From: an uncultured Myxococcales bacterium
GTDB lineage: Bacteria; Myxococcota_A; UBA9042; DTJE01
Direction of reading: 5' to 3'
Assembly (NCBI GenBank): GCA_903847405.1
Contig: CAINDP010000031.1
Span: 1-58,534, forward strand
DNA length: 58,534 nucleotides
A program made the translations under genes and the position numbers. Positions 9,401 to 32,147 of the stretch are shown here, piece after piece; the first letter of the stretch is position 1, and every line of letters begins with the position of its first letter. The notes below the pieces were generated by a model. That model was not told the origin of the DNA. It searched no databases and saw nothing but the letters and a program-made list of their open reading frames with translations.

Positions 9401-12400
9401 GACGAACTCGTCGATCACGTCCAACGGCGGCTATGGCCTGTACGGCTCCAACAGCTACTACACGCCCACGACGACCTGGTCCAACACGAACAACTGGGGC
9501 AACACCAGCGGCGCGTCCCTGGGCATCACGATGTCGGGCGGCACCGGCACGTTCAGTTACAACCCGCTGTTCAAGGACGCGGCAAACGGCGACTTCACGC
9601 CGACCGACCGCTCGCCCCTGCGGTGCGGCCACCAGGACGCGGTCCAGGCCGCGGGCTACAAGCCCTTCGTGGGCGATCCCACGGGGCAGTTGATGGGGTA
9701 CCTGCACGGCGACATGACGCTGACGGCCGCCGGGTCGCCGTACGTCATCCCGGGCGATCTGATCGTGGACAACAAGTGCAGCACCACGCCGGTGACGCTG
9801 ACGATCCAGGCCGGCACGGTCCTGCAGTTCGCGGCGAAGGCCGACGCGATGGGCGGCGGCGTCAGTGCGGCGCGGACGGAACTGCGCGTGCTGGACAACC
9901 TGGTCATGGACGGCGTCACGGCCCAGGTCGCGCTGACGACGGGCGCGACGGCACCGGCCAAGGGCGACTGGACCGGCGTCGTGCTGGAAACCGGATCCAC
10001 GGTCAACGCCAGGGGCTACCTGGTGGAGTGGGCCGACAACGGCTTCCGGGGCGTGTCGACTACGGGCAACGTGTACGGCGCGGGCGTCGTTCGCAACGCC
10101 AGTTCCTGGGGCTACACGTTCAGTTCCGGCGCCAACGGCACCTGGGAGGACGGGCTGATCACGCTGAACGGCCAGGGCGGCATCTCGCTGGCCAACCTGA
10201 CCGGCACGCCGGTGATCCGGCGGAACATCGTGCTGGACAACGGGTCCTACGACGTCTACGTCGCGGACGGCAGCGTCCAGTTGTTCAACAACGTGCTGAT
10301 GGGGTCGAACACCGGCTTCTACGGGTACAAGAGCACCGGCACCACCGTCATCACCTTCGACCTGTACAACAACACGATCCACGAACACGCCGCGGAGTGC
10401 ATCCACACGGTCAACTACGGCAGTTCGGCCAACTACATGAAACTGAACGGCCGGAACAACCTGATGACCTGGTCCACGGGCTGGGCGTTCCTGGACGACG
10501 GGTCGTACCGCATCCAGATGGGAACCATCGGCTGGAACTACAACAACGTCTACAAGACCGCGAACTACACGGCGGCGAACCCGTACAGCGGCATCAACAA
10601 GGGCGCGAACGACACGGCCTTCGACCCGCAGTACGAGGACATCGACCCCAGCGGTCGGCGGCGCTGGTACGACCTGCGGCTGCTGTCGATTTCGCCCATG
10701 GTGGACGCCGGCACCAGCGGCGGGCTGATCCCGACCGAGGATCTGATCAAGACCGCGCGGCCCAAGGTCACCAAGTGGGACATCGGCGCCTACGAGTATG
10801 ACCCCGCGGTCAACCACGACCCCTGGGCGGCGGCGGGCGCGGACCTGCTGGTGGCCCAGGAAGACGTGACGTGCTTCGACGCGTCGGCCACCACGGACCT
10901 GGACAGCGACGCCATGACGTACGCGTGGACCTTCGGCGACGGCCAGGGCGCGGCGGGCAAGTTCGTGTGCCACACGTTCACGAACAACATCGTCCACGAG
11001 GTCATCCTGACCGTCACGGACGAGCACGGCGGCGTGGACCACGACGTGCTGGCCGTGGACGTGGACCGTCGGCCCATCGCCGAGGCCGGGCCCGAGGTGT
11101 TCGCGGCGGCGGGCGGGGACGCGGCGGCGTTCGACGGCTCGCAGTCGCGGGACGTGGACGGGACCGTGACCGCATACTCGTGGGACTTCGGCGACGGCAG
11201 CCCGCTGTCGACCGTGGCAAAGCCCTCGCACCAGTACAGCGCCGGCCCGTCCAAGGACTTCCTGGTCACCCTGACCGTCACGGACAACGACGGCTTCAGC
11301 AGCAGCGACACCACCATCGCCCACGTGTACGGCACCACCGACACGAACGGTCCGCTGATCGTCCACACGGCCATCGCCAACGGGCGGCCGGAAGGCCAGG
11401 CGGTGGACATCAACGCGACGATTTCCGACCCCAGCGGCGTCCAGGGCGCGAAGGTCTACTACCGCAGCGTGGGCGCGGCATCCTGGACGACCATGGCCAT
11501 GACGCTGCTGGGGGGGACGTCGTACAAGGCGACGATCCCGTCCGCGGCCGTGACGGCGGCGGGCGTGCAGTACTACATCGAGGCGACGGACAGCTACGCG
11601 ACGCCCAACACGGGCACCCTGCCGGCCACGGCGCCGGTCGCGGTGTTCACGTTCACGGTGAACCCGGTGGACAACCTGGGACCGACCATCGTGCACACGC
11701 CGATCGCGAACGGCCAGGCCGAGGGCCGACTGGTCGCGGTCGGGGCGACCGTCACGGACGCGTCGGGCGTGGCCACGGTCAAGCTGTACTACCGCGTCGG
11801 CGGCGGCTCGGCCTACGGCAACCTGTCGATGAGCACCACGGGCGACGGCGTCTACGCGGGCGCCATCCCTGCCGAAATCGTGACGGCGACGGGCGTGGAC
11901 TACTACATCGAGGCCACCGACCAGGCGCCCGCGGCCAACAAGAGCACGGCGCCGCTGACGGCACCGGGCGTGCCCTACCACTTCTCGGTGAACGTCACCG
12001 ACACGGCGGGGCCGACGATCGTCCACACGGCCGTCGCGAACGGGCAACTGTCGAACAACGCGGTGACGATCCTGGCGGACATCACCGACCTCAGCGGCGT
12101 CCAGTCCGCGAACCTGTTCTATCGCGTGACGGCCGGGTCCTGGTCCTCCACGGCGATGTCCAAGACCACGGGCAACACCTACAGCGCCCAGATCCCGGCC
12201 GGCATGGTGACGACCGCGGGCGTGCAGTACTACCTGTATGCGCAGGACAATTCCGCGGCCCACAACGCCAGCCTGGCGCCGGCCACGGCCCCGACCACGC
12301 CCTATGCGTTCACGGTCACCTCCGGGGACACCAGCGGCCCGTCCATCGCCCACACGGCCGTCGCGAACGGACAGGTCGCGGGGGCTGCCGTCACGATCGC

Positions 12401-15400
12401 CGCGGCGGTGGTGGACGGCTCGGGCGTCGCGTCGGTCACGCTGTACTACCGCATCCTGGGGGCGGCCTCCTGGACGATCCAGGCCATGTCGCACGGCACC
12501 GGGGATTCGTACCAGGGCGTCATCCCGGCGGACCAGGTCACCAGCGCCGGCGTGCAGTACTACCTGCGGGCGGTCGATGCCAGCACGGCGTCCAACGCCA
12601 GCGTCGCCCCGGTCACGGCCCCGGGCACCCCCTACGGGTTCACGGTGAAGGTCGAGGACCGGACCGGGCCGGACGTGGCCCACACGCCGGTGCGCAACGG
12701 CCAGATCGCGGGCAGCCCGGTCACCGTCACGGCGACGGTCACCGATGCCAGCGGCGTCAACAGCGTCACCCTGTACTACCGCGCCCCGGGCGGTTCCTAC
12801 ACGACGGCGCCGATGTCCCTGGGCGCAACGGACACGTATTCCGCGACGATCCCGGGCACGTCGGTGGCGACGCCCTCGGTCGAGTACTACCTGGTGGCGA
12901 TCGACAACTCGCCGCTGAACAACCAGTCCATCGTGCCGTCCACGGCGCCCACGACGCCCTACGCGTTCACGGTGACGCCCCAGGACCTGGCGGGTCCGAC
13001 GATCACCCACACACCCATCGCCGACGGGCAGGTCACGAACCGGGCGGTCGCGATTTCGGCGACGGTCACGGACGGCAGCAGCGTGGCGTCGGTCCAGTTG
13101 CTGTACCGCGTGCAGGGCGCGGCGTCGTGGACGACCATCGCGATGTCGGTGGCGCCCGGCGACACCTACACGGCGACCATCCCGGCCGTATCGGTGACGA
13201 CGGCGGGCGTGGAGTACTACATCCGGGCGACCGACGCGTCGTCCAACGCCAACGTCAGCGTCCTGCCGACGACGGCGCCGACCACCCCGTACCGGTTCAC
13301 CGGCGTCCTGCCGGACACCACCGGCCCGGTCATCACGCACACGCCGATCGCCAACGGGCGGACCGCGAACGTGGCGGTGACCGTCGCCGCGACCGTGAGC
13401 GACGTCAGCGGCGTCGCGTCCGTGAAGCTGTACTTCAAGGCGTCCAATGCGGCGACCTACGCCATCGTGGACATGGCCGTCACGACGGGCACCACCTGGC
13501 AGGCCGACATCCCGGCCTTCGCGGTCACGACCGCGGGCGTGGACTACTACCTGCTGGCCACGGACCTGGCCGGCGCGGCCAACACCTCCACCAGCCCGGC
13601 CAACGCGCCGACCGCCAAGAACACGTTCACGGTGCTGGCGGTGGACAACACGGCGCCGCTCATCGCGCACGTGCCGATCGCCGCCGGGCGGCCCGAGGGC
13701 GTGGCCGTGGCCATCAGCGCGGCCGTCAGCGACGCCAGCGGCATCGCCGGCGCGACGCTGTGGTACCGCACCACGGGCAGCGGCGCCTATGCGTCCGTCG
13801 CGATGACCGACGGGAACGCCGACGGGGTCTATGACGCCGGCATCCCGGCGGGCACCGTGCTGCCGGCAGGCGTGGACTACTACCTGACGGCCGTGGACGC
13901 GTCCGTGCAGGCCAACGGGGCGACGCTGCCCACGACCGCGCCGACGACGCCGTACCACTTCACCGTGACGGCACGGGACGTGACGCCGCCGGCGATCCAG
14001 CACACCCCCGTCGCGAACGGGCAACTGCTGGGGATCGACGTGCCGGTCCAGGCCAACGTCGTGGACGCCGGGGGCGTCCTGTCGGTCACGCTGTTCTACC
14101 GCGCCACCGGTTCGCCGACCTATGCGTCGGCGCCGATGGTGTCCGAGGGGACGGGCCAGTATGCGGGCCTGCTGCCCGGCGCGGCGATCACCGCGGCGGG
14201 CGTCGACTACTACCTCCAGGCGGTGGACGTCGCGACCCCGGCCAACGCGGCCGTGGCGCCCGTCACGGCCCCGACCACGCCGTACCGGTTCACGGTGAAG
14301 GTGCCGGACACCACGGGACCGTCCATCGTCCACACGGCCGTCGCCGACGGGCAGACCGTGGGCGTGGACGTGGCGATCGCGGCCACGATCACCGACGCCA
14401 GCGGCATCGCATCGGCCACGCTGTGGTTCCGGCCGACGGGGTCCGCGACGTTCTATTCCGTCGCACTGACGGCCCAGGGCGGCAACGCATACGCGGGCAC
14501 CATCCCGGGCTACGCCGTCACCGCCGCGGGCGTGCAGTACTTCCTGCAGGCCATGGACAGTGCCCAGCCGCCGAACGCCGCGGTCCTGCCGGCGGGCGCG
14601 CCGACCGTGCCTTACGCGTTCACGGCCCGCGCGTCCGACACCACCGGGCCGACGATCGCGCACACGCCCATCACCGACGGGCAGACGGCGGGCGGGGACA
14701 TCACGATCCAGGCGACCGTGGCCGATGCCAGCGGCGTCGGGACGGTCACGCTGTACTACCGCACGTCCGGCACGACGGCCTTCACGTCGGTGACCCTGGC
14801 CGCGCAGGGGAACGGCCTGTACTCGGCCGCGATCCCGGCGGTGACCGTGGCGGTTCCCGGAGTGGACTACTACCTGGTGGCCACGGACCAGGCGCAGCCG
14901 GCGAACACCTCGGTCCTGCCGGCGGGCGGCCTGGCCGCACCGTTCACGTTCACGGTTCTTGCGTCCGACGGCACCGGGCCGACGATCGACCACACGCCCG
15001 TCACCGACGGGCAGACGGCGGGCGGGGACATCACGATCCAGGCGACCGTCACCGACGCCAGCGGGGTCGGGTCGGTCACGCTGTACTACCGCACCTCCGG
15101 CACGACGCCGTTCGCGTCGGCAACCATGGCGGCACAGGGCGGCGACCTGTTCCAGGCCACGATCCCGGCAGCCACCGTGAAGGTCCCGGGCGTGGACTAC
15201 TACCTGGTCGCCGCGGACCAGGCCCAGCCCTCGAACACCTCGAAGGACCCGGCCGGGGCCCCCGGCGCACCGCATTCGTTCACCGTCACGACCGCCGACA
15301 CCATGGGCCCGGCGATCGTCCACACCCCGGTCCGGGACGCGCAACTGGTCGGCGTCGACGTGGCGATCCAGACCACGGTCACCGATCCCAGCGGCGTGAC

Positions 15401-17726
15401 GCTGGTGCGGGTGCGCTATCGCGTGCAGGGCAGCCCGTACTTCGACAGCCGGGACCTGGTTTCCCAGGGTGAGGGCCTGTACGCCGGCGCCATCCCGGGC
15501 GCCGCCGTGACGGCACCCGGCATGGACTACTACCTCGAGGCCCAGGACGCGCTGGGCAACGGATCGGTCGCACCGGAAGACGGCCCTGGCACGCCGTACC
15601 AGTTCACCGTGTCCGCCACCGACAGCACCGGCCCGTCGATCCTCCACACCGCGATTGCCGACGGGCGGCCCGCCGGCGCCGACCTGGTGTTCCAGGCGAC
15701 GGTCACCGATCCCAGCGGCGTGTCGCTGGTGCGGATGCGCTACCGGGTCCAGGGCGAACCCACCTTCGGCCTGCTGGACATGGCGTCCCAGGGCGGCAAC
15801 GTCTACGCCGGCACGCTGCCGGGCGCGGCCGTGGTCGCACCGGCCATGGAGTACTACATCGAGGCCCAGGACGGCACACCCGCGGGCAACGGCTCGGTGG
15901 CCCCGGACGGCGCCCCCGGGACGCCGTACCACTTCACCGTGATCGTGCTGGACAACGCCGGCCCGACCATCGACCACGACCCGCTGACCGGCAACCACGT
16001 CGCCGGCATGGCGGTGCCGGTCACCGCGATCGTCACGGACCCCAGTGGCGTCGCGGCAGTGCGCATGTACTTCCGGCCCACGGGCACCGCGGACTTCGCG
16101 GTGACGGCGATGACCGCCAAGGGCGGCAACGTCTGGGAAGGGACCGTGCCGGCCTACGCCGTCACGACGCCCGGCGTGGACTACACCCTGGAGGCGGTCG
16201 ACGCCTCGGCGCAGGCCAACGTGGCCACCAGCCCCGGCGGGGCCCCGGCGACGTTCCACGCGTTCCCGGTCATCGTGCTGGACACGGTCGGCCCGGTCAT
16301 CGATCACACGCCGCTGTCCGACGGGCAGATGGCCGGCGCGGCCGTTCTGGTCCTGGCCGCGGTCACGGACGCCAGCGGGGTCGCAACCGTCACGCTGTCC
16401 TACCGCGCCAAGGGCACGACGCCGTGGTTCGACGTGGAAATGACCGCCGACGGCGACCTGTGGTCGGCCGAAATCCCGGGCACCGCGATGGTCCCGGCGG
16501 CGATCGAGTACTTCCTGACGGCGGCCGATCTGGCCGACCCGTCGAACACCGCACTGGACCCGAAGTGGGGCGCGGCGATGCCGTACTCCTTCACGGTCGT
16601 GACCGTGGACGGGGCCGGCCCGTCCCTGGCCGTCACGGCCGTCGCCGACGACCGTCCGGTGGGCAAGAGCGTCACGGTCCAGGCCACGGCCCAGGACCCC
16701 AGCGGCATCCACGCGGTCACGCTGTTCTACCGGCAGGCGGGCAGCACCGACTTCACGGCCGTGCCCATGGCGGCGACGACCGACGTCCAGTACCAGGGCA
16801 AGATCCCCGCCGAGGACGTCACCGGCACGGGCATCGAGTACTACGTGCTGGCCGTGGACGACGCCGCGGCCGCGAACACGGCCATCTGGCCTGCGACGGC
16901 GCCCGAAACGCCGGCATCGTTCACCCTCGCCGCTCCGCCCGACGCGGAAGGCCCGACGGTCGTCGTGGACACGATCCGCGACGAGCAGCCGGTGGGCGTC
17001 GACGTCGTCGTGACGGCGACCGTCACGGACGCCAGCGGGGTGGGCACGGTCACGCTGTTCTACCGCACCCAGGGCACGTCCGGGTTCACGTCCGTCACCA
17101 TGGCGGCCGGTGCGACCGCCGACACCTACCAGGCGACGATCCCGGCGGCGGCCGTCGCATCCCCCGGCGTGGACTACTATGTCGAGGCCCTGGACCAGGC
17201 CGCCACGGCCAACAAGACGGTCGCCCCGACCGCCGGTCCGACCGGCCCCTACACCTTCACGGTGGACGTCCCGATCACGCCGGACACCACCCCGCCCGCC
17301 ATCGTCCACACGCCGCCCGAGGGGACGCTGTACGCGGGCCAGGCCATCACGCTGGCCGCGACCATCACCGACGACAGCGGCATCGCCGCCGCCGTCCTGC
17401 ACTACCAGGTCGCGGGCGGCATCTGGAACACCGTGGACATGACCGCGGCGGCCGGCAGCAGCCTGTGGAACGGCGTGATCCCCGCCGGCGAGGTCCTGGC
17501 GGGCGAGCTGCGCTACTACTTCGAGGCCCGCGACAAGTCGGCGCAGAACAACATCGGCCGCGAGCCGGCCGGGGCCCCCTCGGCGTCGCGCAAGCTGATC
17601 GTCGTCGAAAAGACCGGCGACACGAAGTCCGGCGGCGGCTGCGATGCCGGGTCCACCGGGGCGCTGATTCCGACGCTGCTGATGATGGTGCTGGCGTTTG
17701 CGGCGTTGCGGCGGCGGACGGTCTAG
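6423..17726 (+). CDS. Giant secreted surface protein: beta-helix, PKD and 19 Ig-like domains
   Basis: 3767 residues. Met-Met start and a signal peptide (LLMTALLLVLALPARA, cleavage near residue 23). Residues 24-1463 form four related blocks of about 360 residues (starting near 24, 378, 736 and 1092), rich in N, G, T and Y, with repeated right-handed beta-helix style turns. The first three blocks end with an SYYTP segment followed by SPLR. Residues 1464-1637 hold two PKD domains (WTFGDG and WDFGDG). Residues 1643-3730 hold 19 Ig-like repeats of about 110 residues, each with HT-NG, D-SGV, YYR and a GV-YY motif. The C-terminus has a Gly-rich GGGCDAGS, one hydrophobic helix and an RRRTV tail, resembling MYXO-CTERM or Synerg-CTERM sorting signals. 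It is probably a cell-surface adhesin or coat protein; the ligand is unknown. Confidence 0.9.
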   Translation: MMTRISLLMTALLLVLALPARADTLVSGNINTDTHWTTAGSPYVLQNDVAVVAAATLTIDPGVVVKANSTGGSGNRDSARIELVIQGRLIADASTGSPIVFTSAKASPVTGDWYGIDFLTTAVAGSVIKNVEIAYARKALHIENTPAANLALDKLFIHHFSENGVYLLGATTTVAVTNSEIHEQGVASPGSCIYMETVGNAVHSGLKLHHCSYGVYAYETSATIQDSQVYANTTQGLYLYRASATARTFELKNSLLYANGAYGAELYNIASGLLTLNVTDSVVFGHTSYGFYGGNSYYTPHVRYQYSDIWSNGSGATSGNTVDGTAGSMVENPLLVAPATYDFRPTERSPLRYSDSNTVKGTIGPLEYDGVTTPGMQGVYWTSTTFPTGETPIEGDVTVAKGAILTIPAGATLRMATTDAMKGGVDTARIEFLVKGTLSVAGTPTQQVTFTSTGTAKTDWYGIHVFPTADGLSMGGTKVVRATRGLWIDGTALAPTDLEADSCDTGLYVSGSNAAFANLTIHDGTTGIYATGGNPQFTNVALTNGTSGIVLTATQADFQDLTINGFTSYGVNISEGGAGFTNAFKHCLIYDNQIGFYLYNSSGAIAATLNHCTVAFNRGDAFNLYRTSNSYAMSVVLSASAVTNNTGYAFNGSSSYYTPTATWTYSDVWKNGSGVSASITGGASTGSFIYNPLYANPAARNFKPTHRSPLRYSDGAAAEIGYHAYGSDQTPGYHGFYWENQAFTPGTYEVAGDVVVTARRIPGSGVDPADPTDDVPARVTFQPGVTLRMATTDTMEGGRDAARIEIVNHGTLEMDGITGMWVKATSAATVPTKNDWYGVVVASDAFGTNVSETEASYALFGARLETNNHIIKNFEAYKCGTGVYVEGGAPEVRNVLLHDNDIGLNIVNSTPKIYDLVAHHNSSYGLYVSQADGTTRTINVDGCMLYGNPNEGGHVYQSSGAITFGLNRCTIHGNGSHGFELYRTVNNAMTLNLTNSSITSNGGYGLYGSNSYYTPTTTWSNTNNWGNTSGASLGITMSGGTGTFSYNPLFKDAANGDFTPTDRSPLRCGHQDAVQAAGYKPFVGDPTGQLMGYLHGDMTLTAAGSPYVIPGDLIVDNKCSTTPVTLTIQAGTVLQFAAKADAMGGGVSAARTELRVLDNLVMDGVTAQVALTTGATAPAKGDWTGVVLETGSTVNARGYLVEWADNGFRGVSTTGNVYGAGVVRNASSWGYTFSSGANGTWEDGLITLNGQGGISLANLTGTPVIRRNIVLDNGSYDVYVADGSVQLFNNVLMGSNTGFYGYKSTGTTVITFDLYNNTIHEHAAECIHTVNYGSSANYMKLNGRNNLMTWSTGWAFLDDGSYRIQMGTIGWNYNNVYKTANYTAANPYSGINKGANDTAFDPQYEDIDPSGRRRWYDLRLLSISPMVDAGTSGGLIPTEDLIKTARPKVTKWDIGAYEYDPAVNHDPWAAAGADLLVAQEDVTCFDASATTDLDSDAMTYAWTFGDGQGAAGKFVCHTFTNNIVHEVILTVTDEHGGVDHDVLAVDVDRRPIAEAGPEVFAAAGGDAAAFDGSQSRDVDGTVTAYSWDFGDGSPLSTVAKPSHQYSAGPSKDFLVTLTVTDNDGFSSSDTTIAHVYGTTDTNGPLIVHTAIANGRPEGQAVDINATISDPSGVQGAKVYYRSVGAASWTTMAMTLLGGTSYKATIPSAAVTAAGVQYYIEATDSYATPNTGTLPATAPVAVFTFTVNPVDNLGPTIVHTPIANGQAEGRLVAVGATVTDASGVATVKLYYRVGGGSAYGNLSMSTTGDGVYAGAIPAEIVTATGVDYYIEATDQAPAANKSTAPLTAPGVPYHFSVNVTDTAGPTIVHTAVANGQLSNNAVTILADITDLSGVQSANLFYRVTAGSWSSTAMSKTTGNTYSAQIPAGMVTTAGVQYYLYAQDNSAAHNASLAPATAPTTPYAFTVTSGDTSGPSIAHTAVANGQVAGAAVTIAAAVVDGSGVASVTLYYRILGAASWTIQAMSHGTGDSYQGVIPADQVTSAGVQYYLRAVDASTASNASVAPVTAPGTPYGFTVKVEDRTGPDVAHTPVRNGQIAGSPVTVTATVTDASGVNSVTLYYRAPGGSYTTAPMSLGATDTYSATIPGTSVATPSVEYYLVAIDNSPLNNQSIVPSTAPTTPYAFTVTPQDLAGPTITHTPIADGQVTNRAVAISATVTDGSSVASVQLLYRVQGAASWTTIAMSVAPGDTYTATIPAVSVTTAGVEYYIRATDASSNANVSVLPTTAPTTPYRFTGVLPDTTGPVITHTPIANGRTANVAVTVAATVSDVSGVASVKLYFKASNAATYAIVDMAVTTGTTWQADIPAFAVTTAGVDYYLLATDLAGAANTSTSPANAPTAKNTFTVLAVDNTAPLIAHVPIAAGRPEGVAVAISAAVSDASGIAGATLWYRTTGSGAYASVAMTDGNADGVYDAGIPAGTVLPAGVDYYLTAVDASVQANGATLPTTAPTTPYHFTVTARDVTPPAIQHTPVANGQLLGIDVPVQANVVDAGGVLSVTLFYRATGSPTYASAPMVSEGTGQYAGLLPGAAITAAGVDYYLQAVDVATPANAAVAPVTAPTTPYRFTVKVPDTTGPSIVHTAVADGQTVGVDVAIAATITDASGIASATLWFRPTGSATFYSVALTAQGGNAYAGTIPGYAVTAAGVQYFLQAMDSAQPPNAAVLPAGAPTVPYAFTARASDTTGPTIAHTPITDGQTAGGDITIQATVADASGVGTVTLYYRTSGTTAFTSVTLAAQGNGLYSAAIPAVTVAVPGVDYYLVATDQAQPANTSVLPAGGLAAPFTFTVLASDGTGPTIDHTPVTDGQTAGGDITIQATVTDASGVGSVTLYYRTSGTTPFASATMAAQGGDLFQATIPAATVKVPGVDYYLVAADQAQPSNTSKDPAGAPGAPHSFTVTTADTMGPAIVHTPVRDAQLVGVDVAIQTTVTDPSGVTLVRVRYRVQGSPYFDSRDLVSQGEGLYAGAIPGAAVTAPGMDYYLEAQDALGNGSVAPEDGPGTPYQFTVSATDSTGPSILHTAIADGRPAGADLVFQATVTDPSGVSLVRMRYRVQGEPTFGLLDMASQGGNVYAGTLPGAAVVAPAMEYYIEAQDGTPAGNGSVAPDGAPGTPYHFTVIVLDNAGPTIDHDPLTGNHVAGMAVPVTAIVTDPSGVAAVRMYFRPTGTADFAVTAMTAKGGNVWEGTVPAYAVTTPGVDYTLEAVDASAQANVATSPGGAPATFHAFPVIVLDTVGPVIDHTPLSDGQMAGAAVLVLAAVTDASGVATVTLSYRAKGTTPWFDVEMTADGDLWSAEIPGTAMVPAAIEYFLTAADLADPSNTALDPKWGAAMPYSFTVVTVDGAGPSLAVTAVADDRPVGKSVTVQATAQDPSGIHAVTLFYRQAGSTDFTAVPMAATTDVQYQGKIPAEDVTGTGIEYYVLAVDDAAAANTAIWPATAPETPASFTLAAPPDAEGPTVVVDTIRDEQPVGVDVVVTATVTDASGVGTVTLFYRTQGTSGFTSVTMAAGATADTYQATIPAAAVASPGVDYYVEALDQAATANKTVAPTAGPTGPYTFTVDVPITPDTTPPAIVHTPPEGTLYAGQAITLAATITDDSGIAAAVLHYQVAGGIWNTVDMTAAAGSSLWNGVIPAGEVLAGELRYYFEARDKSAQNNIGREPAGAPSASRKLIVVEKTGDTKSGGGCDAGSTGALIPTLLMMVLAFAALRRRTV
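11349..17632 (+). repeat. 19 tandem repeats of about 330 bp inside the giant gene
   Basis: Each unit encodes one Ig-like domain of 108-113 residues, starting at a GP-I-HT motif and ending before the next. Most units differ in sequence, but units 11 and 12 are close: bases 14671-14719 and 15001-15049 are identical, a 330-nt offset that points to recent duplication by one unit. Unit number is therefore likely to vary between strains, and short-read assembly here could be collapsed. Confidence 0.9.
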
Positions 17727-20061: not shown

Positions 20062-20131
20062 AACCCTGGTGCCTCCACCCGCAAGACGCGCTATGCTCGC
20101 CGCCAACCAAGACCCTCTGCGAGGCATCATC

Positions 20132-21622
20132 ATGCTGGCGGTGATCTCGGATCTTCATTTCGAGGAAGAGGCCCTGGACAAGGTCACTTCGGCGGCGAAC
20201 CCCGATGGGGTGTCGTTCGTGCGGAACCTTCCCGCCGGGGCGTACCACAAGATCATCGCGCGACTGGCCGACGAGGTGATGCGCAACAAGGCGACGCACC
20301 TGGACGTCGTGCTGGCCGGCGACGTGTTCGACCTGCACCGGACGCTGCTGTGGTTCGGCAAGGACGACGGCGCGGGCCGCTTCCAGCCGACGCCGGACCC
20401 GGTGCGTCCCTACGTCGCCAACACGAAGGTGACGCCGGATCTGGAAACGAAGATCGTGGACATCCTGGACGCCATCGCGAAGGAGGAGCGCGTCGCGGGG
20501 GCGCTGCAGGCCTTCAAACTGCTGTGGCAGGGCCTGTACGTCCCGAAGGGCGGCGATCCCAGCGCCCCTGAACAGTTCCCGCTGGCGGCGGACTGCATCC
20601 GCGCCGTGTACCTCCCCGGCAACCACGACCGGCTGGCGAACGCGACCCCGAAAATCCAGCAGAGGGTCCGGCACCACCTGGGCCTGCCCGAAACGGACGC
20701 GCCGTTCCTGCACACGCACACCTCCGACGATCCCCGCGTGATCGTGCGCCACGGCCACGAGTACGACGCCTTCAACTTCGGCACGGACTACAGCCGCAAG
20801 ACCTCGATCCCGTCCAGCATCCCCGAGGAGCACTACGAAGCCCCCACGTTCGGGGACTTTGTGACGGTCGACATCGTGGGCGCCCTGCCCTGGCGCATGC
20901 GCCGACACTACGGGGACGAAACCATCGTCGACACGCCCGCCCTGGCCGCGATCTACCTGCGCCTGCTGGAGTTCGACGACGTCCGCCCCCAGTCCCGCCT
21001 GCTGGACTTCGTGCTGGGCACCGCGGACACCAACCCCAGGCAGGACGAACAGTGGAACCTGCTGCGACCGGTCCTGGCCGGCCTGCTGGACGACGTCTGT
21101 GACCACCCCTTCCTGCGCGCCAGCATCGCCAGGATGAAGCCGGTCGGCATCAAGAAGCGCCTGGCCCTGCTGGCGGTCAAGGCGGCGATCCGGTCCCGGG
21201 TGTGGCGGCGCGCCCTGCCCCTGGGGGTGATGCGGTCGCTGATGGGCCAACTGGAAGGCGCCGGTGACGCCCCTGCGACCTACGCCCACCGGGAACACGC
21301 CATCCAGCACGGCACGACGCGGTTCGTGGTCGCCGGGCACACGCACAACCCGGACGTCGTGCCTGTCGGCCAGGCCTCGCGCGAACAGGTCTTCATCGAC
21401 ACGGGGACCTGGCGGAACAAGGTGCTGCCGACCGTGGCCGGCGAAGGGTTCGTCCGCCTGAAGTCCCTGACCTACGTGACCGTCTATGGCTCCACCGAGG
21501 ACGGCGGCCGCGACGCCGACGACAGCGTGCGGCAGGAGTCCTTCGACTTCTGGTCGGGCTTTGCCGAGAAGTGGCCCGAACCCACGAACACGAAAACGAA
21601 CCCGGCGACGGAGGGAATCTAG
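20132..21622 (+). CDS. Calcineurin-like metallophosphoesterase
   Basis: 496 residues from ATG 20132, chosen because the strand-forming MLAVISDLHF begins there and a GAGG lies about 10 nt upstream; an ATG at 20069 would add an unlikely 21-residue tail. The dinuclear metal site is visible in order: D-x-H in SDLHF (6-10), GD in GDVFDLHR, GNHD (about 162-166), GHE (about 207) and GHTHN (about 401). At roughly 500 residues it is longer than a minimal phosphoesterase. The substrate is unknown. It ends directly against the next start (TAG then ATG, no spacer), so it is coupled to the GMC-hydrolase fusion and may act on a product of that enzyme. Confidence 0.9.
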   Translation: MLAVISDLHFEEEALDKVTSAANPDGVSFVRNLPAGAYHKIIARLADEVMRNKATHLDVVLAGDVFDLHRTLLWFGKDDGAGRFQPTPDPVRPYVANTKVTPDLETKIVDILDAIAKEERVAGALQAFKLLWQGLYVPKGGDPSAPEQFPLAADCIRAVYLPGNHDRLANATPKIQQRVRHHLGLPETDAPFLHTHTSDDPRVIVRHGHEYDAFNFGTDYSRKTSIPSSIPEEHYEAPTFGDFVTVDIVGALPWRMRRHYGDETIVDTPALAAIYLRLLEFDDVRPQSRLLDFVLGTADTNPRQDEQWNLLRPVLAGLLDDVCDHPFLRASIARMKPVGIKKRLALLAVKAAIRSRVWRRALPLGVMRSLMGQLEGAGDAPATYAHREHAIQHGTTRFVVAGHTHNPDVVPVGQASREQVFIDTGTWRNKVLPTVAGEGFVRLKSLTYVTVYGSTEDGGRDADDSVRQESFDFWSGFAEKWPEPTNTKTNPATEGI

Positions 21623-25045: not shown

Positions 25046-25750
25046 CTACGCGGTCGGCTGGGGGTGCGCAATCGATTGCACCCCTCCGGTCCCCGGCGGC
25101 TCGGGTTCCTGCACCGCGCGGTTCCGCGACAGGGTCGGGAAGTAGGGCCTTGCGGCGGCGACGTCCTGCAGGCGGATGCTCACCTGGCAGCGCACCATGC
25201 TGACCGCCTTCCGGTACGCGCGAACCTGGGCCTTCAGCGCCTGCACCGCGTTGCGCTCCATCGCTTCCGCCTCCTTCCATGCCTCCATGGCGCCCTGCCA
25301 CGCGGCCACGGCTTCCCTCAACCTCTGGGCCCCCGCCGGATTGCCTGTATTGGCGTCCATCCGCCCGACCAGGAACCGCACCGCCTGCTGGCGCTGAGCG
25401 ACGCCTCCTTCCACCAACCCCTTCCGGTCATCCGGGAACAGCGTGCGGTACGCCGCATCGCTCCGGTCACCGCAGCACGCTTCCAGCGCATGGAACTGCA
25501 AGGCCCGGATGACCTGGACCATCGCGTGGTCCGCCTCTTCCGTCAAACCGCGCGTCAGCCACCGGCCGTTTGCCGCCGCCTTCCTCGCCTCCCCGGCCTG
25601 TTCCAGCCGTTCGATCGCCGCCCTCACCGCCGGCACAAGGTCCGCCAGTTCGGCATTCCCCCCCAGCCGCTCGGCGCTCCGGCGCCCCAGAGCCAACAGA
25701 ACCTCGATCCGTGTCTCCAAGAGTTGGGTTCGACCCAGGCAGAGCAGCAT
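25046..25750 (-). CDS. Unknown helical protein, paralogue of the ORF at 198-353
   Basis: 234 residues from ATG 25748-25750. Most of it is predicted helix with heptad-like Ala, Leu, Arg and Glu: RRSAERLGGNAELADLV, then VRAAIERLEQAGEARKAAA and AVAAWQGAMEAWKEAEAME. Cys residues occur in the ALEACCGDRSDAAYR segment. No signal peptide or clear family. The C-terminal part MVRCQVSIRLQD plus AAARPYFP matches the 51-aa ORF at 198-353, and the same hairpin follows both. An in-frame TGA lies 33 nt upstream of the ATG, and the codons between (NCVERVAQC) look coding-like, so the N-terminus may have been shortened. It sits beside the low-GC NTPase gene in accessory DNA. Confidence 0.7.
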   Translation of the reverse strand: MLLCLGRTQLLETRIEVLLALGRRSAERLGGNAELADLVPAVRAAIERLEQAGEARKAAANGRWLTRGLTEEADHAMVQVIRALQFHALEACCGDRSDAAYRTLFPDDRKGLVEGGVAQRQQAVRFLVGRMDANTGNPAGAQRLREAVAAWQGAMEAWKEAEAMERNAVQALKAQVRAYRKAVSMVRCQVSIRLQDVAAARPYFPTLSRNRAVQEPEPPGTGGVQSIAHPQPTA

Positions 25751-25786
25751 GCACTGCGCAACTCGTTCGACGCAGTTTCACGACGT

Positions 25787-25829
25787 CTGGACGGGCCGGA
25801 CGGGCTGGACGGGCTGGACGGGCTGGACG
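25787..25829. repeat. 9-bp tandem repeat
   Basis: Four full copies of CTGGACGGG (second copy CCGGACGGG) at 25787-25822 and a partial fifth to 25829. It lies in the 222-nt gap between the 234-aa gene and the NTPase gene. A second short tandem, GACGAACAGC twice, follows near 25888-25907. The rest of the gap becomes less GC-rich towards the NTPase gene and contains TACACT at 25916-25921, a possible -10 without a clear -35. Confidence 0.8.
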
Positions 25830-25972
25830 TTGAAGGTGGCCCGAAATCAACCTCACATTAAGGGGCGTTTCTGACCTTCGGAACACGACGAACAGCGACG
25901 AACAGCGATATGGACTACACTAACGAAGTTTGCTAGGGTTGCGCTGCCGTCACAATCGGGGGAATTGGACAA

Positions 25973-28900
25973 TTGGAAATTGCTTTTGTGCAAATTAGCG
26001 ATATTCACTTTCGAGATGATCGCCAGAATCAGATTGCTGGGCATCTTTCGGCCATTGAACGCGTTCTAGCGGCCGTGCGGTCCCGTCTGGCCCTCCACCG
26101 AGTCGACGCCTGCTTTCTAGCTGTAACCGGGGATATCGCCTATCACGGCAGGGAGACAGAATACGCGCTCGCCACACCATTTCTTAAGAAGCTGCTAGAT
26201 GGACTGCGGGCAGAACTGGCACACGCTACCTGTCAGATTGTTCTGGTACCTGGCAACCATGATTGCGATTTCGAGACGCAATACCCGGAGATAGCCCTCA
26301 GGAGCCGGATACTGAAAACCGATGGGCTAGAAGATGTCACCGGACTTGAGGCAACGATCGTAACCTGCATCCAGAAACCCTATCGGGATTTTGAGTCTCG
26401 CTTGGCACCTATTTCAGACAAGGACCATCTCGTCAGTGAGCCGGGGCCATGCGTACAAATCCATGAGTTCAAAGTATCCGGCAATGTAATCCGCTTCTAC
26501 GCGCTGAACACAGCCTGGATGTCTGAAAGAGATGAAACCCCTGGAAAGCTCGTCTTCCCACCGGCAGGACTCAGTGAGCCACTGTCTGCTCCGTTGCCAT
26601 CGCTTTCGATCGTGCTTCAGCATCATCCCGCGCGAGGTTGGTTCCGCCCAAGCAATGCTCGCGACTTGACGCGACGCCTGGAGGGCTTGGCGGATATCAT
26701 CCTAACCGGACACGAGCATGAGTCAGACGATGCCAGTGTGTCACGAACCACTGGGGCACAAGTAAACTATATCGAAGGATACGCATTTCAATGCGACGGA
26801 GCAAAAGGGCAGCCAACGTCCGCCTTCAAAGTTATCGTCGTCGATACGGCAATGCAATCTCAGGTGACCTACAATCTAATATTGGATTCGGACGGGATCT
26901 ATCTGCCGGAGACGGAGAACCCTCCTGCGCGCCCTCTGATCAGCAATCCCAAACGACTTGAGAGTAGTTTCATCTGGAGCGAGAAGGGCAATGCGTTTGC
27001 GACAGACCTAGGGTTGCCCGTAACCCATGTCAAACGTGGACGCGTCACTCTTGATGACCTGTTTGTCTATCCCTTTGTCCGGCAGGTACCGCGGCAACCA
27101 CCGTCGACTACGTCGAACGAGAGGCTCTCCGCCGATAGAATTCCTTGGCTGCACGAACGGACAATCATTGTCGGAGGTGAGCTCTGCGGCAAATCCACAT
27201 TGGCCAAGAAGTTCTTTGCCGACGCGTCTCAATCGCAGGATCTTGTCCCTGTATTTGTCAGGGGGATCGACATCAAGAGCACTTCTCCCCGCGATTGTAG
27301 TGCTCTGATTGATGACGCCTTCACCAAGCACTACTCATCCGCCAAGGAGCGGTATCGCCAGCTACCAAAGGAAAGGAAGGTTCTGATCATTGACGATATC
27401 CACCGTTCGAGCAAACGGGGAGAAGCCATCGACAAGGTGTTGCGTTGGTGCGCCGACCAATTCGGAACAATCCTTTGTTTTGCAGACAACATGCTGATGC
27501 TCGACGAGGTCGGCGACGGGCCGGAGGAACGCATCCTGCCGTTGTTTGCACGTTACGAAATTCTGCCGTTCGGACACTCCAAGCGGAATGAATTGATCTA
27601 CCAATGGTGCACGCTTGGAGAGTCTCAGGAAAACATACCCGAGGTGAAGAGGCGGACTGCGAGGGTAGTTCAGCAGGTTAACGCTGTGCTTGGCAAAAGG
27701 TTCGTGCCATACGTACCGCTATTTGTTCTAGGGATACTTCAGCAAATCGAGACGAGTGGAGGCCCTGACAACTATACGGCATCACAAGGGGCTGTTTTCG
27801 AAGCGCTCGCAACGTTGAAGCTTCAGATGAACTTCAAGGAAGACCTCCTAACAGCCAAGAACTACTTGGCTCACTTCGCATTTGCACTCTACGAGCGTCG
27901 GCAACGGTTCATGACGATTTCTGAGTTTGACAAGTGGCATGACGGTTACTGTAAGGAATTCAAACTGCGTCTTGATGCCGGCGACTACCGCAGACGGCTT
28001 GTTGATTCCCAAATTTTTCAAGTCTTGGACGACGAGGTCGGCTTCTTGCACCGCTTTGGATACTATCTCTATGTGGCAGACTATTTTGCGCGGCATATTG
28101 AAGAGCCGGAAACCCAGGCGCGCGTTCGAGAAATGTTCCGGTCTCTTTTTCATGAGGAGACGTCAAACATTCTCGTGTTCCTTTGCTTCAAGGCATCTGG
28201 CCACACCGAGTTCATCGTGCAGATGATGCTCGAGTCAGCAAGAAGCGTTTTTCCGCAACACTTGCCTGCCACCCTTGAAGATGACGCGAGGCTCATAGGC
28301 GATCAGATCGCTTCGGCTAGTCCGCCCGAACTGGACTCTCTGTGTCCAGATACTCGTCGCGCGCGGATGTTGGAGGCAAGTGATGGCCATGAGCCGAATC
28401 CATACGGCAATCTGCGTGAGGATGACTTGAGGCTTGAGGACGAGGCCGAATCGAACTATCCCCCGGAGCTTCGGGAGTGCTATGCTGCTGTGCGAAGTAT
28501 TCAACTTCTTGGACAGATCCTGCGCAATTTCTACGGTACGCTCGGTGGGAATCAGAAGGTCGAGATTTCTCGCGCTGCGTACGAACTCGCGATGAGGGTG
28601 GTGAGTTGGTACTTCTGCTTCATCACTGAGAACCAGCGAGCCGTCGCCGAGGGATTGGCCCGTGTTATTGTCAGGGACCACCTTCGTGAGTATTCGGATT
28701 CAGAACGTCTTGGCCTTGAAGTGCAGCGGACCCTTCATGCCCTTACTGAGCTTGTATCGACCGGGATGATCAAGCGAGCAGCCGACGCAACAGGAATGCG
28801 TGCGCTGGAGCCCGTCTACAGTGAGGTGATAAATGGAGATGACGGGAAGCCGCTGTCGGCTGCGTATGGTCTGATTGGGCTGGAGATCGCGCTGAATGTG

Positions 28901-29119
28901 AGCCCAACTACCCCCTTGGAGAAAATCCGCGCCGCATCAAAGGACCTTCGGGGAAATCTTTACGCACTAAGAATTCTCCAGCATCTGGTATTGGCACATC
29001 TTTCTGCCAGTTTCGTCGAAGAAAAGGTAACTCAGCAAGTTTGCGCTGCGCTTGGGATCAAGGAACCGCCCAAGGTCGTTTCTGACGGGGCACTGAAGCA
29101 GTTGCCTCGGCCAAAGTAG
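25973..29119 (+). CDS. Metallophosphoesterase-STAND-type P-loop NTPase, candidate defence protein
   Basis: 1048 residues from TTG 25973, the only start between an upstream in-frame TAG and the first motif, with a GGGGGAA 8-14 nt before it. Domain 1 (about 1-330) is a calcineurin-like phosphoesterase: SDIHF (9-13), GDIAYHG, GNHDCD (about 93), a QHHP and GHEHES (about 245). Domain 2 (about 370-640) is a P-loop NTPase: Walker A GGELCGKST (about 400) and Walker B KVLIIDDIH (about 468). The last 400 residues are helical with no recognised repeat. An enzymatic domain, an NTPase and a long C-terminal sensor is the layout of STAND defence proteins such as Avs. GC is 50-55% in lines counted, against 70% next door, so recent transfer is likely. 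The defence role is inference. Confidence 0.8.
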   Translation: MEIAFVQISDIHFRDDRQNQIAGHLSAIERVLAAVRSRLALHRVDACFLAVTGDIAYHGRETEYALATPFLKKLLDGLRAELAHATCQIVLVPGNHDCDFETQYPEIALRSRILKTDGLEDVTGLEATIVTCIQKPYRDFESRLAPISDKDHLVSEPGPCVQIHEFKVSGNVIRFYALNTAWMSERDETPGKLVFPPAGLSEPLSAPLPSLSIVLQHHPARGWFRPSNARDLTRRLEGLADIILTGHEHESDDASVSRTTGAQVNYIEGYAFQCDGAKGQPTSAFKVIVVDTAMQSQVTYNLILDSDGIYLPETENPPARPLISNPKRLESSFIWSEKGNAFATDLGLPVTHVKRGRVTLDDLFVYPFVRQVPRQPPSTTSNERLSADRIPWLHERTIIVGGELCGKSTLAKKFFADASQSQDLVPVFVRGIDIKSTSPRDCSALIDDAFTKHYSSAKERYRQLPKERKVLIIDDIHRSSKRGEAIDKVLRWCADQFGTILCFADNMLMLDEVGDGPEERILPLFARYEILPFGHSKRNELIYQWCTLGESQENIPEVKRRTARVVQQVNAVLGKRFVPYVPLFVLGILQQIETSGGPDNYTASQGAVFEALATLKLQMNFKEDLLTAKNYLAHFAFALYERRQRFMTISEFDKWHDGYCKEFKLRLDAGDYRRRLVDSQIFQVLDDEVGFLHRFGYYLYVADYFARHIEEPETQARVREMFRSLFHEETSNILVFLCFKASGHTEFIVQMMLESARSVFPQHLPATLEDDARLIGDQIASASPPELDSLCPDTRRARMLEASDGHEPNPYGNLREDDLRLEDEAESNYPPELRECYAAVRSIQLLGQILRNFYGTLGGNQKVEISRAAYELAMRVVSWYFCFITENQRAVAEGLARVIVRDHLREYSDSERLGLEVQRTLHALTELVSTGMIKRAADATGMRALEPVYSEVINGDDGKPLSAAYGLIGLEIALNVSPTTPLEKIRAASKDLRGNLYALRILQHLVLAHLSASFVEEKVTQQVCAALGIKEPPKVVSDGALKQLPRPK

Positions 29120-29186
29120 GTGAAAGGACCTGCCCTCCCATGCAACCGGACAGTTTCGAGTGAGACATCATATCAAGGCGACCGCG

Positions 29187-29341
29187 GGCCGGGTCCGGGG
29201 GTGCCAACGCGGAAGCCTCCGGAGGCGCGGTCCACCTTGCGGGGGCAATAACAATCGGACCGCGCCGAGTAGGCAGTTGCCGGCTGGGGGCAGAGCCCCC
29301 GGCCGGACAACGGTTCTGCGTGGCACCACCGGGACCCGGCC
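29187..29341. other. Structured 155-nt intergenic element (possible ncRNA or mobile-element remnant)
   Basis: The 295-nt gap between the NTPase and DUF362 genes holds nested inverted repeats. An outer stem pairs 29187-29210 with 29318-29341 (first 10 pairs perfect, about 22 in all with small bulges). Inside are a perfect 10-bp stem 29224-29233/29257-29266 whose loop carries TTGC-GGGG-GCAA, the palindrome GCCTCCGGAGGC at 29215-29226 (an alternative to that stem), a short GGCA/TGCC hairpin at 29272-29281, and a 12-bp stem 29280-29291/29295-29306 with an AGA loop and one G-U pair. No ORF of note crosses it. It is GC-rich, unlike the gene to its left. From 29380 to the DUF362 stop there are GGCTCAG and GGCCCTGC short tandems. 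Confidence 0.6.
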
Positions 29342-29414
29342 CCCCACAACGTCACGTCATTCGATGTGGCTTGTTACTGCGGCTCAGGGGCTCAGCGGCC
29401 CTGCGGCCCTGCGG

Positions 29415-32147
29415 CTAGAACCCCATTTCGTACAACACCCGGCTGGCCAACCGGTTCGCCAACGTGGGATTTTCGCCCGTCTGCACGAAGAACGTCTGCC
29501 GTAGCGGCAGGCTCAACTTCCGCATGACCTTCTTCCACGCCGGCCCGGGCTTGTCGGGGAACGCCGCCGGGTCCATCTGGCTGCAGGACATGTAGAACAC
29601 GTTGCCGAACTGGTAGTGCGCGTCCAGGCCGTCGTTCGTGAACAGTGCCAGCAACCCCGGTACATTGACCCACGGCCGGTACGGCGACGGGTCGCCGATC
29701 AGCTTGATCCGCGGCTTGCCAAACGTGTCCACCGCCAAACGCATATACCGGCTGACCATCGGGTCCAGCCCCATCTTGGTCGCGCCCACCCAGTCCACCG
29801 CCACCAGGTCCGACCCCGCGATGATCGTGTCCGTCCTGCGCGGCGCCGGCGACGCGAACACCCCGAACGGCCCGTCCGCGCTGTCATAGGCGTCCACGAT
29901 GCCGAACTGCACCGGGAACGCGTGCAGGTACTCGATGGCCGTCTCGAAGATGCCGCGCCCGCAGTGGTATTCCTTGAACTTGTTGGCCAGCGGCAACGCG
30001 CCGTAGATGTTCTTCAGCGTCAGCGTGTAGTACGCATAGCAATGCGTCTTGTTCTTCGCGAACGAAATCCGGTAGTCCGCTTCGCGCCACACCTTCGACA
30101 CCGGCGCCTCGGCGCCCAGGTGCGGCCCCAGGGGCCGGTGTTCGTCCACGTCCAGCGTCATGTCCACGATCGGCACGCCGAGGGCCCCGAACCCCTGGTA
30201 CTCCGCCACCTCGGCCACGCTGCGGTGCTCGAAGAACTGGCCGTAGGTGCTGTGCGCTTCCACGATCGTGAGGTTCGTGTAGCCCCGCGCCTTCAGCCGG
30301 TCCACCAGGCGCCCGACCAGCCGGGGGTTCGTGAAAGTGGACACGTCCTCGCGGCTGTAGGAAAACATGAAGTTCGGCTTGATGATGACCTTGAACTTCG
30401 CCTTCGTCTTGCCCGACGCCAGGCGCGCCTGGTCCACGTTCAGGTCGAACCCCGAGTCATCCAGCGCCCGGTCCAGCGCGGCGTAGCGATCCGCCCCCGT
30501 GGCCACCGCCACGACGGCCTCCCGCGTGGTCCCCACCGGCTCGCGCCGCAGCAGGTCCATCGCCTCTTCCAGCGCCAGCGTTTCAACGCCCGACGCGTCC
30601 TTCACGCGCCGGATGCGCCGCAGGAAGATCCCCGTCGGGTAGTGGTCGTTCGCGACTTCCAGCACCGGGTCGCCCAGCACTTCGAAGGCCGGCGCGCCGC
30701 CCTCCTTCGGGTCGTTCAGCAGCGTCACCTTCGTCTGGGCGCCCTCCAGCGCATACTCCGCCGACGAGGACCAATCGATCAACGCCCCCAGCCACGCGTC
30801 CAGCCGGTCCTTGCCCCAGTTCACCCGGTCGTCGCGCAGCACGCCCGTGTGGATCTGCGTCCGGATGACGCCGTTGCCCGCAGGGATCGCGCACAGGTAG
30901 TGGTACAGCAGCGTGGGCTCCTTCAGGCTGCAGAAGGTGCCGTGCTCGGCTTCGCCCCGCGTGCGGGCCGGGTCCACCACGAACGGTTCGGCCGCGGCGC
31001 CTGCCCCGATCGACAACGTCCCCGACAGCATCCGGACCAACTGCGGCGTGATCGTGATGCCCAGCGGGTGCGTTTCGGGCAGCACCTGGCGCAGGGCCGA
31101 GGCCATCGCGCTGTTCAGGTTGCGGACCATCTTCGGGACGATCGGGAACGGGAAGGCCACCGCGTCGAACTCGGCCGCCCGGAACTTCAGGTCGAACTCC
31201 ACGTGCCGGGGCGTCAGCGCCGGATCGCCGGCGTCGATCGCCTTGAACGACACCGACTGGCCGTCCGCCACCTCGTACAACGTACCCTTGAAATGGCAGG
31301 TGCCCCGCGCCAGGTCCAGGCCCAGCCCCGCCAGCGCCCGGCGGGTGGTCGCCAGCCGGCGCCAGCCTCCCGCACCGTCGCCCACCAGCAGCAGCACGTC
31401 GCTGAACTGCTCGCCGTCGCCCCAGGGGAAGCCCTTTTCGTGGGTGCCTGCCACCAGGAAGAAGGGGCGGTCGACGTTCGCGGCGTCCGCCACCACGCCT
31501 GACAGGACCAGGTTGAAGTAGGCCGCGTCGTACAGCGGGGACCACTCGTCCAGGTACTCGTCCCGGATGGACCCCATCGCCAGCGACAGGAACGCCGCGG
31601 GGGCCGCCAGGCGCTGCAGGGCGGTGGCCTCGCCTTCCACGCGCATGGACGACGCCAGGGACCCCGAGTCCTTCAACAGGAACTGCAGGATGCCGGCGCC
31701 CACGACCGGTGCCGACGCGTCGATGCCCTGGTGGATGGTGGTGTACAGGTGCGTGATGTCCCACAGGACGTTCGTTTCGTCCGCCCGCAGGTGCTTCTGG
31801 CCATGCAGGTAGTAGGCCTGCCCGTTCGTGGCCTGGAACCCGAACGCGTACATCATCCGGCGTTCGCCGTTGTCCGGGTCCAGGTCGAACATGTGGATTT
31901 CGCCGTCGGTGATGGGGAACGTCCCCCCCAGCGGCTCCCACGTGACGGTCCCGGTCAGCACGCCCATGTGGCGCTCGTCCTCCAGGAAGTCCTGGAAGTC
32001 CGCCATGCGGGCCTGGACCGTGAACTGGATCGGCGTCTTGCCATCACGGCCCGCGACTTCCCCGGCCACGGGATCGGTGACCCCCAGGGCGGCAAAGCCG
32101 GACATCGTCTCGTCGAACACGAAGGTCACGTTGCTCAGAAGGCCCAT
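29415..32147 (-). CDS. DUF362 domain protein with an N-terminal module shared with the GMC fusion
   Basis: 910 residues from ATG 32145-32147, which follows a run of seven G; upstream codons in the same frame are not coding-like. The last 310 residues are DUF362: KVIIKPNFMFSYSRED, YTNLTIVEAHSTYGQFF, SFAKNKTHCYAYYTLTLKNIYGA and GSDLVAVDWVGATKMGLDP. DUF362 proteins are of uncertain role and are often linked to iron-sulphur or redox proteins, but I see no ferredoxin-type cysteine cluster. Residues 1-170 align with domain 2 of the protein at 21623-24979 (NGQAYYLHGQKHLR against TGQHWFLDGVKVLR; LWDITHLYTTIHQG against LWKDTTTLFVTVHDG). The middle third is unrecognised. Confidence 0.85.
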   Translation of the reverse strand: MGLLSNVTFVFDETMSGFAALGVTDPVAGEVAGRDGKTPIQFTVQARMADFQDFLEDERHMGVLTGTVTWEPLGGTFPITDGEIHMFDLDPDNGERRMMYAFGFQATNGQAYYLHGQKHLRADETNVLWDITHLYTTIHQGIDASAPVVGAGILQFLLKDSGSLASSMRVEGEATALQRLAAPAAFLSLAMGSIRDEYLDEWSPLYDAAYFNLVLSGVVADAANVDRPFFLVAGTHEKGFPWGDGEQFSDVLLLVGDGAGGWRRLATTRRALAGLGLDLARGTCHFKGTLYEVADGQSVSFKAIDAGDPALTPRHVEFDLKFRAAEFDAVAFPFPIVPKMVRNLNSAMASALRQVLPETHPLGITITPQLVRMLSGTLSIGAGAAAEPFVVDPARTRGEAEHGTFCSLKEPTLLYHYLCAIPAGNGVIRTQIHTGVLRDDRVNWGKDRLDAWLGALIDWSSSAEYALEGAQTKVTLLNDPKEGGAPAFEVLGDPVLEVANDHYPTGIFLRRIRRVKDASGVETLALEEAMDLLRREPVGTTREAVVAVATGADRYAALDRALDDSGFDLNVDQARLASGKTKAKFKVIIKPNFMFSYSREDVSTFTNPRLVGRLVDRLKARGYTNLTIVEAHSTYGQFFEHRSVAEVAEYQGFGALGVPIVDMTLDVDEHRPLGPHLGAEAPVSKVWREADYRISFAKNKTHCYAYYTLTLKNIYGALPLANKFKEYHCGRGIFETAIEYLHAFPVQFGIVDAYDSADGPFGVFASPAPRRTDTIIAGSDLVAVDWVGATKMGLDPMVSRYMRLAVDTFGKPRIKLIGDPSPYRPWVNVPGLLALFTNDGLDAHYQFGNVFYMSCSQMDPAAFPDKPGPAWKKVMRKLSLPLRQTFFVQTGENPTLANRLASRVLYEMGF

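Follow-up and report, generated by a model that had tools for sequence, protein, structure and literature searches.

A divergent phosphoesterase–STAND homologue of the DS8/PDC-S60 family as a candidate anti-phage protein in an uncultured Myxococcales bacterium

Introduction

What might a single long, comparatively AT-rich gene that joins a phosphoesterase to an NTPase be doing in the G+C-rich DNA of an uncultured Myxococcales bacterium? The gene lies in a stretch of 58,534 nucleotides (contig CAINDP010000031.1 of GenBank assembly GCA_903847405.1), all of which was analysed and which is referred to here as the window. A sequence-only reading of this window had described a TTG-started gene in which calcineurin-like phosphoesterase motifs, Walker A and B motifs and a long helical stretch follow one another in one chain, and had proposed it as an anti-phage candidate. 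Pfam, alignments and an AlphaFold2 model bear out this order of parts, the coordinates of which are collected in Table 1. Below, we ask in turn what the gene and its site look like, to which families its domains belong, which of them would act as the effector, and what the company kept by its relatives suggests about function.

Table 1. Features of the gene and its site, in window coordinates
Feature	Position	Strand	Basis
Stretch with no DNA match in G001 (same genus), insertion/variable site	25716..29416		comparison with same-genus genome
Phosphoesterase–STAND gene, DS8/PDC-S60 family homologue, 1048 aa	25973..29119	+	ORF, Pfam, PADLOC, NCBIfam
N-terminal calcineurin-like phosphoesterase, residues 1-325, predicted effector	25973..26947	+	PF00149, AF2 model, fold matches
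Metal ligands D10 and H12, DxH motif	26000..26008	+	invariant in MPE homologues (alignments A5, A6)
Metal ligand D54, GD motif	26132..26134	+	invariant (A5, A6)
N95-H96 of GNHD: N95 metal ligand, H96 catalytic histidine	26255..26260	+	invariant (A5, A6)
Metal ligand H217	26621..26623	+	invariant (A5, A6)
Metal ligands H247 and H249, GHEH	26711..26719	+	invariant (A5, A6)
STAND/NACHT-like NTPase, winged-helix and helical module, residues 331-874	26963..28594	+	NLRC4/NLRP3 structure matches
Walker A GGELCGKST, residues 401-409	27173..27199	+	aligned with homologues
Walker B VLIIDD, residues 470-475, two acidic residues	27380..27397	+	aligned with homologues
Pfam nSTAND_NTPase4 segment, residues 647-700	27911..28072	+	just under cut-off
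Helical C-terminal region, residues 701-1030, predicted sensor (role inferred)	28073..29062	+	AF2 secondary structure

The gene and its insertion site

The open reading frame is intact, with zero internal stops, and its TTG start is credible because independent homologues have their first Met at the aligned position; the sequence GGGGGA lies ~10 nt 5′ of it. Scored against one consensus only, no sigma-70-like promoter was found. At 53.5% G+C (GC3 0.58), the gene differs from the neighbouring GMC oxidoreductase (73% G+C, GC3 0.95) and DUF362 genes (68% G+C, GC3 0.93), as the sequence-only reading had pointed out for the GMC gene, and its composition is well beyond chance, given that 241 other segments of the same length average 70.8% G+C (sd 2.3) with a minimum of 66.4%. 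The gene is also lower in G+C than the rest of its locus in 24/24 family loci—with a deficit of 3 to 27 points, and in loci that themselves range from 32 to 71% G+C—so that a low G+C content is a family trait and alone does not date a transfer. A recent transfer from a low-G+C donor is weakened accordingly; that the gene was acquired horizontally at some time forms part of the explanation that we consider probable overall.

Comparison with a genome of the same genus (G001) suggests where the gene entered. Both flanks match G001 at 78-85% identity, up to window position ~25715 on one side and from 29417 on the other, and the gene is missing at the G001 site, where unrelated DNA is found across a contig break. 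From this comparison, the site looks like a variable one. A clean empty site, the exact point of insertion, att repeats or a target duplication are unreadable in G001, as the flanks lie on separate contigs with other DNA between them, and neither a tRNA nor an Rfam RNA was detected in the window.

Several further features of this region can be recorded. At the variable site of G001, positions 1-2409 of L060 hold a WLPGNESRPEW repeat protein, a GIY-YIG-like ORF (assigned by eye) and a low-G+C ORF with a hydrophobic stretch at its N-terminus, all of which are possibly other conflict genes. In the window, a 234-aa orphan ORF (25046-25750, minus strand) that is kept in G001 (L061 1020-1715) sits where the conserved block ends ahead of the insert, and overlapping tandem 9-bp units (CTGGACGGG-like) are found at 25787-25831, just 5′ of the alien gene. 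Farther upstream, the plus strand encodes a giant 3767-aa ORF (6423-17726, GC3 0.96) with a signal-peptide-like N-terminus and a second, unrelated calcineurin-like phosphoesterase of 517 aa (20069-21622, Pfam 1.4e-4), which has a native GC3 of 0.91 and lies within the G001-conserved block, 4.4 kb upstream of the gene.

A calcineurin-like phosphoesterase at the N-terminus

The N-terminal part of the protein matches the calcineurin-like phosphoesterase family PF00149 (residues 5-250, E 4.6e-11), and all seven metal ligands of the pattern DxH..GD..GNH..H..GHxH are present (D10, H12, D54, N95, H217, H247 and H249). Modelled alone by AlphaFold2, residues 1-328 reach a pLDDT of 79.8 and a pTM of 0.86. 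It superimposes on YydB as built into an integrative model (Z 25.5, rmsd 3.2, 291 residues), so that the likeness to the Bacillus protein is to a model and not to an experimental structure. Among the closest experimentally solved folds are the class III phosphodiesterases Rv0805 (Z 18.3, rmsd 3.1, 220 residues) and GpdQ (Z 16.8), to both of which the sequence profile of the domain gives a weak match as well; Lmo2642, purple acid phosphatases and SMPDL3A also match, the latter two with Z ~17. Rv0805, GpdQ and YydB have the fold and the metal-ligand motifs in common with the window phosphoesterase, yet, unlike the window protein, Rv0805 and GpdQ are free-standing enzymes of metabolism that lack a STAND module.

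An NLR-like NTPase and a helical C-terminus

G401, G406 and D474 of the NTPase part are conserved in all full-length alignment rows, and the Walker lysine is replaced by Cys in one relative (L003). Pfam scores for the window protein stay below the cut-offs, with 25.7 bits for nSTAND_NTPase4 (cut-off 27), 14.6 bits for NACHT (cut-off 26.7) and a sub-cut-off match to AAA_14; the nSTAND_NTPase4 cut-off is exceeded by most of the relatives scanned. A sequence search of the PDB with the core profile returned P-loop noise only.

The full-length AlphaFold2 model was built from an eight-sequence alignment and is of moderate confidence (pLDDT 70.9, pTM 0.55). A Foldseek search of the PDB with this model placed the NACHT module of NLRP3 at the top (E 1.7e-8), followed closely by NLRC4 and other NLRs, and VIA-align superimposed model residues 331-874 on NLRC4 (8fw2_A) with Z 13.7 and rmsd 4.4 over 411 residues. 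Because the modelled NTPase matches the NACHT modules of NLRP3 and NLRC4, its assignment to the STAND class, with a predicted NBD–helical–winged-helix fold of the NLR type, is supported; this is the class that the sequence-only reading had named and proposed to verify by HHpred or a structure search, and no match to a non-STAND NTPase was found. The C-terminal half of the model is almost all helix, and here the earlier description of about 400 helical residues was right in kind and somewhat short in extent, since the helical part spans residues ~535-1030.

Placement in an already catalogued family

The curated model NF053861 of NCBIfam, ‘DS8_antiphage’, covers the whole chain collinearly and in the same order of phosphoesterase, NTPase and helical region (residues 7-1029 onto model positions 1-994 of 994, E 5.5e-220, 732.8 bits). 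With 733 bits against the 790 bits required of equivalogs, the window protein falls just under the cut-off and is therefore filed as a divergent DS8 homologue rather than a DS8 equivalog. Other phosphoesterase–STAND relatives that were scanned score between 712 and 1131 bits: L002, L005, L008, L010, L048 and L065 pass the cut-off, with L002, L010 and L048 at 1054-1131 bits, whereas L039, L023, L066 and L067 remain below it, the scores under the cut-off including those of the two other members from the window's phylum (769 and 712 bits).

Both PADLOC models of PDC-S60, a single-gene phage defence candidate in PADLOC-DB, match as well (E 6.5e-77 for residues 342-1030 and 5.8e-27 for residues 7-492), and by these matches the window protein is a PDC-S60 member. 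The two models take in phosphoesterase- and TIR-fused forms. In the literature available, a search found no paper naming PDC-S60 and no experimental paper behind the name DS8. As PADLOC-DB had already listed the family in 2023 and NCBIfam had it by June 2026, the protein is, judged by its sequence, a distant and divergent member of a catalogued family and no novel type of system. No relative exceeds about 31% identity to it, which together with the sub-cut-off score means that its function may have drifted.

The sequence-only reading had considered a phosphoesterase effector uncommon. With the family already catalogued, the protein is less novel than that reading suggested, and Kaur et al. (2021, PMC8195603) had predicted calcineurin-type effectors by sequence analysis in other conflict proteins, of the STAND and TRADD-N kinds. 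Those proteins resemble the window protein in having an N-terminal calcineurin-like phosphoesterase effector that is interchangeable with TIR and others, and differ from it in their FGS or TRADD-N domains and NTPase clades, their description being computational only. The link to Avs and relatives drawn in that reading found no support in the profile search. Avs (AVAST) proteins such as Avs5 with its nSTAND3 domain (PMC12931631) have the tripartite effector–STAND–sensor plan in common with the window protein, but the closest Pfam STAND model of the latter is nSTAND_NTPase4, not nSTAND3, and no Avs model in PADLOC-DB v2 matched up to E 1, and Avs membership was rejected on this basis.

Effector exchange with TIR

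The case for the phosphoesterase as the effector draws most strength from relatives that carry TIR in its place on the same NTPase–sensor core. Such fusions occur in genomes and plasmids (L011, L012, L033, L034, L035, L037 and L051, the last assigned by sequence similarity read by eye) and on the viral contig L063. The window protein itself has the phosphoesterase and no N-terminal TIR according to Pfam, TIR being confined to core-sharing relatives. Repeated swapping of effectors was considered and not adopted: the core tree gives a minimum of two changes, yet a single change is possible, and its branches are long.

A comparable plan is known from the TIR-NLR of P4 satellites, a single-gene TIR–STAND protein with proven anti-phage activity whose relatives carry SIR2 or nucleases instead (Rousset et al. 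2022, PMC9122126). It likewise combines a swappable N-terminal effector, a central STAND NTPase and a C-terminal sensor, but has a TIR effector and a TPR sensor where the window protein has a phosphoesterase and no recognised repeat; the likeness described here is one of plan.

Small genes were seen beside some of the TIR forms. A small ORF with hydrophobic stretches lies directly 5′ of the TIR-core gene on a Vibrio plasmid (L011 2348-2968) and on the phage contig L063 (365-943) and is a possible partner gene, and in L033 (7998-8468) a second small TIR-like protein is encoded directly 5′ of the TIR-core protein.

Exchange with TIR at the same position suggests a toxic effector, which speaks against the reading that the phosphoesterase removes a specific signal (e.g. 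a cyclic nucleotide) or dephosphorylates a protein while the NTPase serves as a regulatory switch. That reading draws on the nearest solved folds—Rv0805, GpdQ, purple acid phosphatase and SMPDL3A—and on the weak profile match to the first two; set against it is also the sporadic distribution of the family described below, and we regard it as unlikely. Similarly doubtful is the proposal that the window protein and the two same-phylum members (769 and 712 bits) form a subfamily whose triggered phosphoesterase has a substrate of its own (for example a signal, cyclic nucleotide or otherwise, or one particular RNA), which would make them a functionally distinct phosphodiesterase-effector NLR.

Distribution and genomic company

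No further copy was found in the source genome and no homologue in the 12 other genomes of the genus and family searched, and the phylum yielded homologues in 3/379 genomes, the window's own included. Searches of three further draws with the core profile gave 6/398, 3/398 and 5/345 genomes, with the seed genome counted in each. The named relatives belong to at least five phyla (Pseudomonadota, Acidobacteriota, Bacteroidota, Bacillota and Verrucomicrobiota), which are intermixed in the core tree. Such a sporadic, phylum-mixing distribution is the pattern that would be expected of horizontally spread conflict genes, and no housekeeping context conserved across families was seen. GenBank/INPHARED phage records gave no match; a scan of viral contigs returned no relatives with a single sequence as query and five relatives carrying the core with alignments.

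Some related genes deserve mention in passing. Phosphoesterase–STAND genes disrupted by a frameshift or stop were encountered in an Acidobacteria MAG (L004/L053) and on a Jeotgalibaca plasmid (L013). In the window's phylum, a 1369-aa protein (L041 5672-9781, minus strand) has a related phosphoesterase before a P-loop NTPase that gives no match to the core profile, together with an extra N-terminal region.

The window contains no recognised defence gene next to the gene of interest. Several homologues do adjoin such genes, in keeping with the clustering that the sequence-only reading had suggested looking for. In a scan with PADLOC of neighbour proteins picked by eye, DISARM DrmD and DrmMI were found directly 5′ of the gene in L039, which belongs to the window's phylum. 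Type I restriction–modification (R-M) adjoins L005, L048 (as a fragment), L067 and the TIR form L051, the latter next to a restriction gene; type III R-M adjoins L008, type II R-M L012 and DarG L006, and the neighbours of L010 comprise type IIG R-M, a Pycsar TM effector and Hachiman. N6_Mtase genes (PF02384, HsdM-type) lie within ~10 kb of the core in 2/19 genomes against 0.21 expected (Poisson p 0.02), a rough control given that this methylase family was picked after the first hits had been seen.

Other copies travel on mobile elements. L067 is itself a viral contig, with a terminase and a Mu-type transposition protein beside its type I R-M system; on further viral contigs, the gene adjoins a CI-like repressor (L065) or an integrase (L066), the TIR form of L063 sits beside portal and terminase genes, and plasmid-borne copies adjoin resolvase genes. 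P2-like phages are known to contain an anti-phage hotspot (PMC9122126). The copies in prophages and phage contigs beside repressor, integrase, portal and terminase genes, as well as the plasmid copies beside resolvases, would fit a conflict protein of mobile elements, one that turns the same switch on competing elements, by superinfection exclusion or by immunity to plasmids or other elements, and does not serve the cell as a general defence against phages. Most of the copies found, however, belong to cellular genomes, where several have restriction systems, DISARM and the like as neighbours, and NCBIfam labels the family anti-phage, so that we judge this alternative, whose role overlaps with the anti-phage one, to be quite unlikely. 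That the gene encodes an ordinary chromosomal phosphoesterase, regulatory or metabolic, which is joined to a P-loop ATPase and takes no part in conflict is highly improbable. The adjoining GMC oxidoreductase and DUF362 genes and ThrS farther along do look housekeeping-like, and a resident phosphoesterase lies 4.4 kb upstream, but homologues are present in 0/12 other genus and family genomes and 3/379 of the phylum, the composition is alien and curated anti-phage models match.

Proposed mechanism and significance

STAND class, single-gene architecture and the anti-phage candidacy put forward by the sequence-only reading are supported by three lines, namely the curated DS8_antiphage and PDC-S60 models, the NLR/NACHT fold and the defence context of homologues. 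The best explanation for the locus, and in our view a probable one, is a STAND switch in one chain that senses phage and acts, in the manner of abortive infection, through a phosphodiesterase effector.

STAND proteins rest in an ADP-bound closed state, from which a ligand drives nucleotide exchange and oligomerisation and then effector activation. Extrapolating from this knowledge at each step, with the parts list and homology of the window protein as the basis, we propose that its C-terminal helical region and winged-helix module would keep the ADP-bound, NACHT-like NTPase closed until the putative sensor binds a phage component. The NTPase would then exchange its nucleotide and oligomerise, and the resulting clustering may switch on the N-terminal two-metal phosphoesterase, which would hydrolyse phosphodiester bonds, presumably those of nucleotides or nucleic acid. 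Damage to these shared cell resources would stop the phage, and the infection would fail.

Taken at this strength, the locus widens the range of a recently named anti-phage family by a phylum in which few genomes carry it, and its relatives show that a single NLR-like core can bear a phosphoesterase in some proteins and a TIR effector in others. The catalytic residues, phage-borne homologues and defence-linked loci listed here could allow a laboratory to settle what a phosphoesterase effector cuts.
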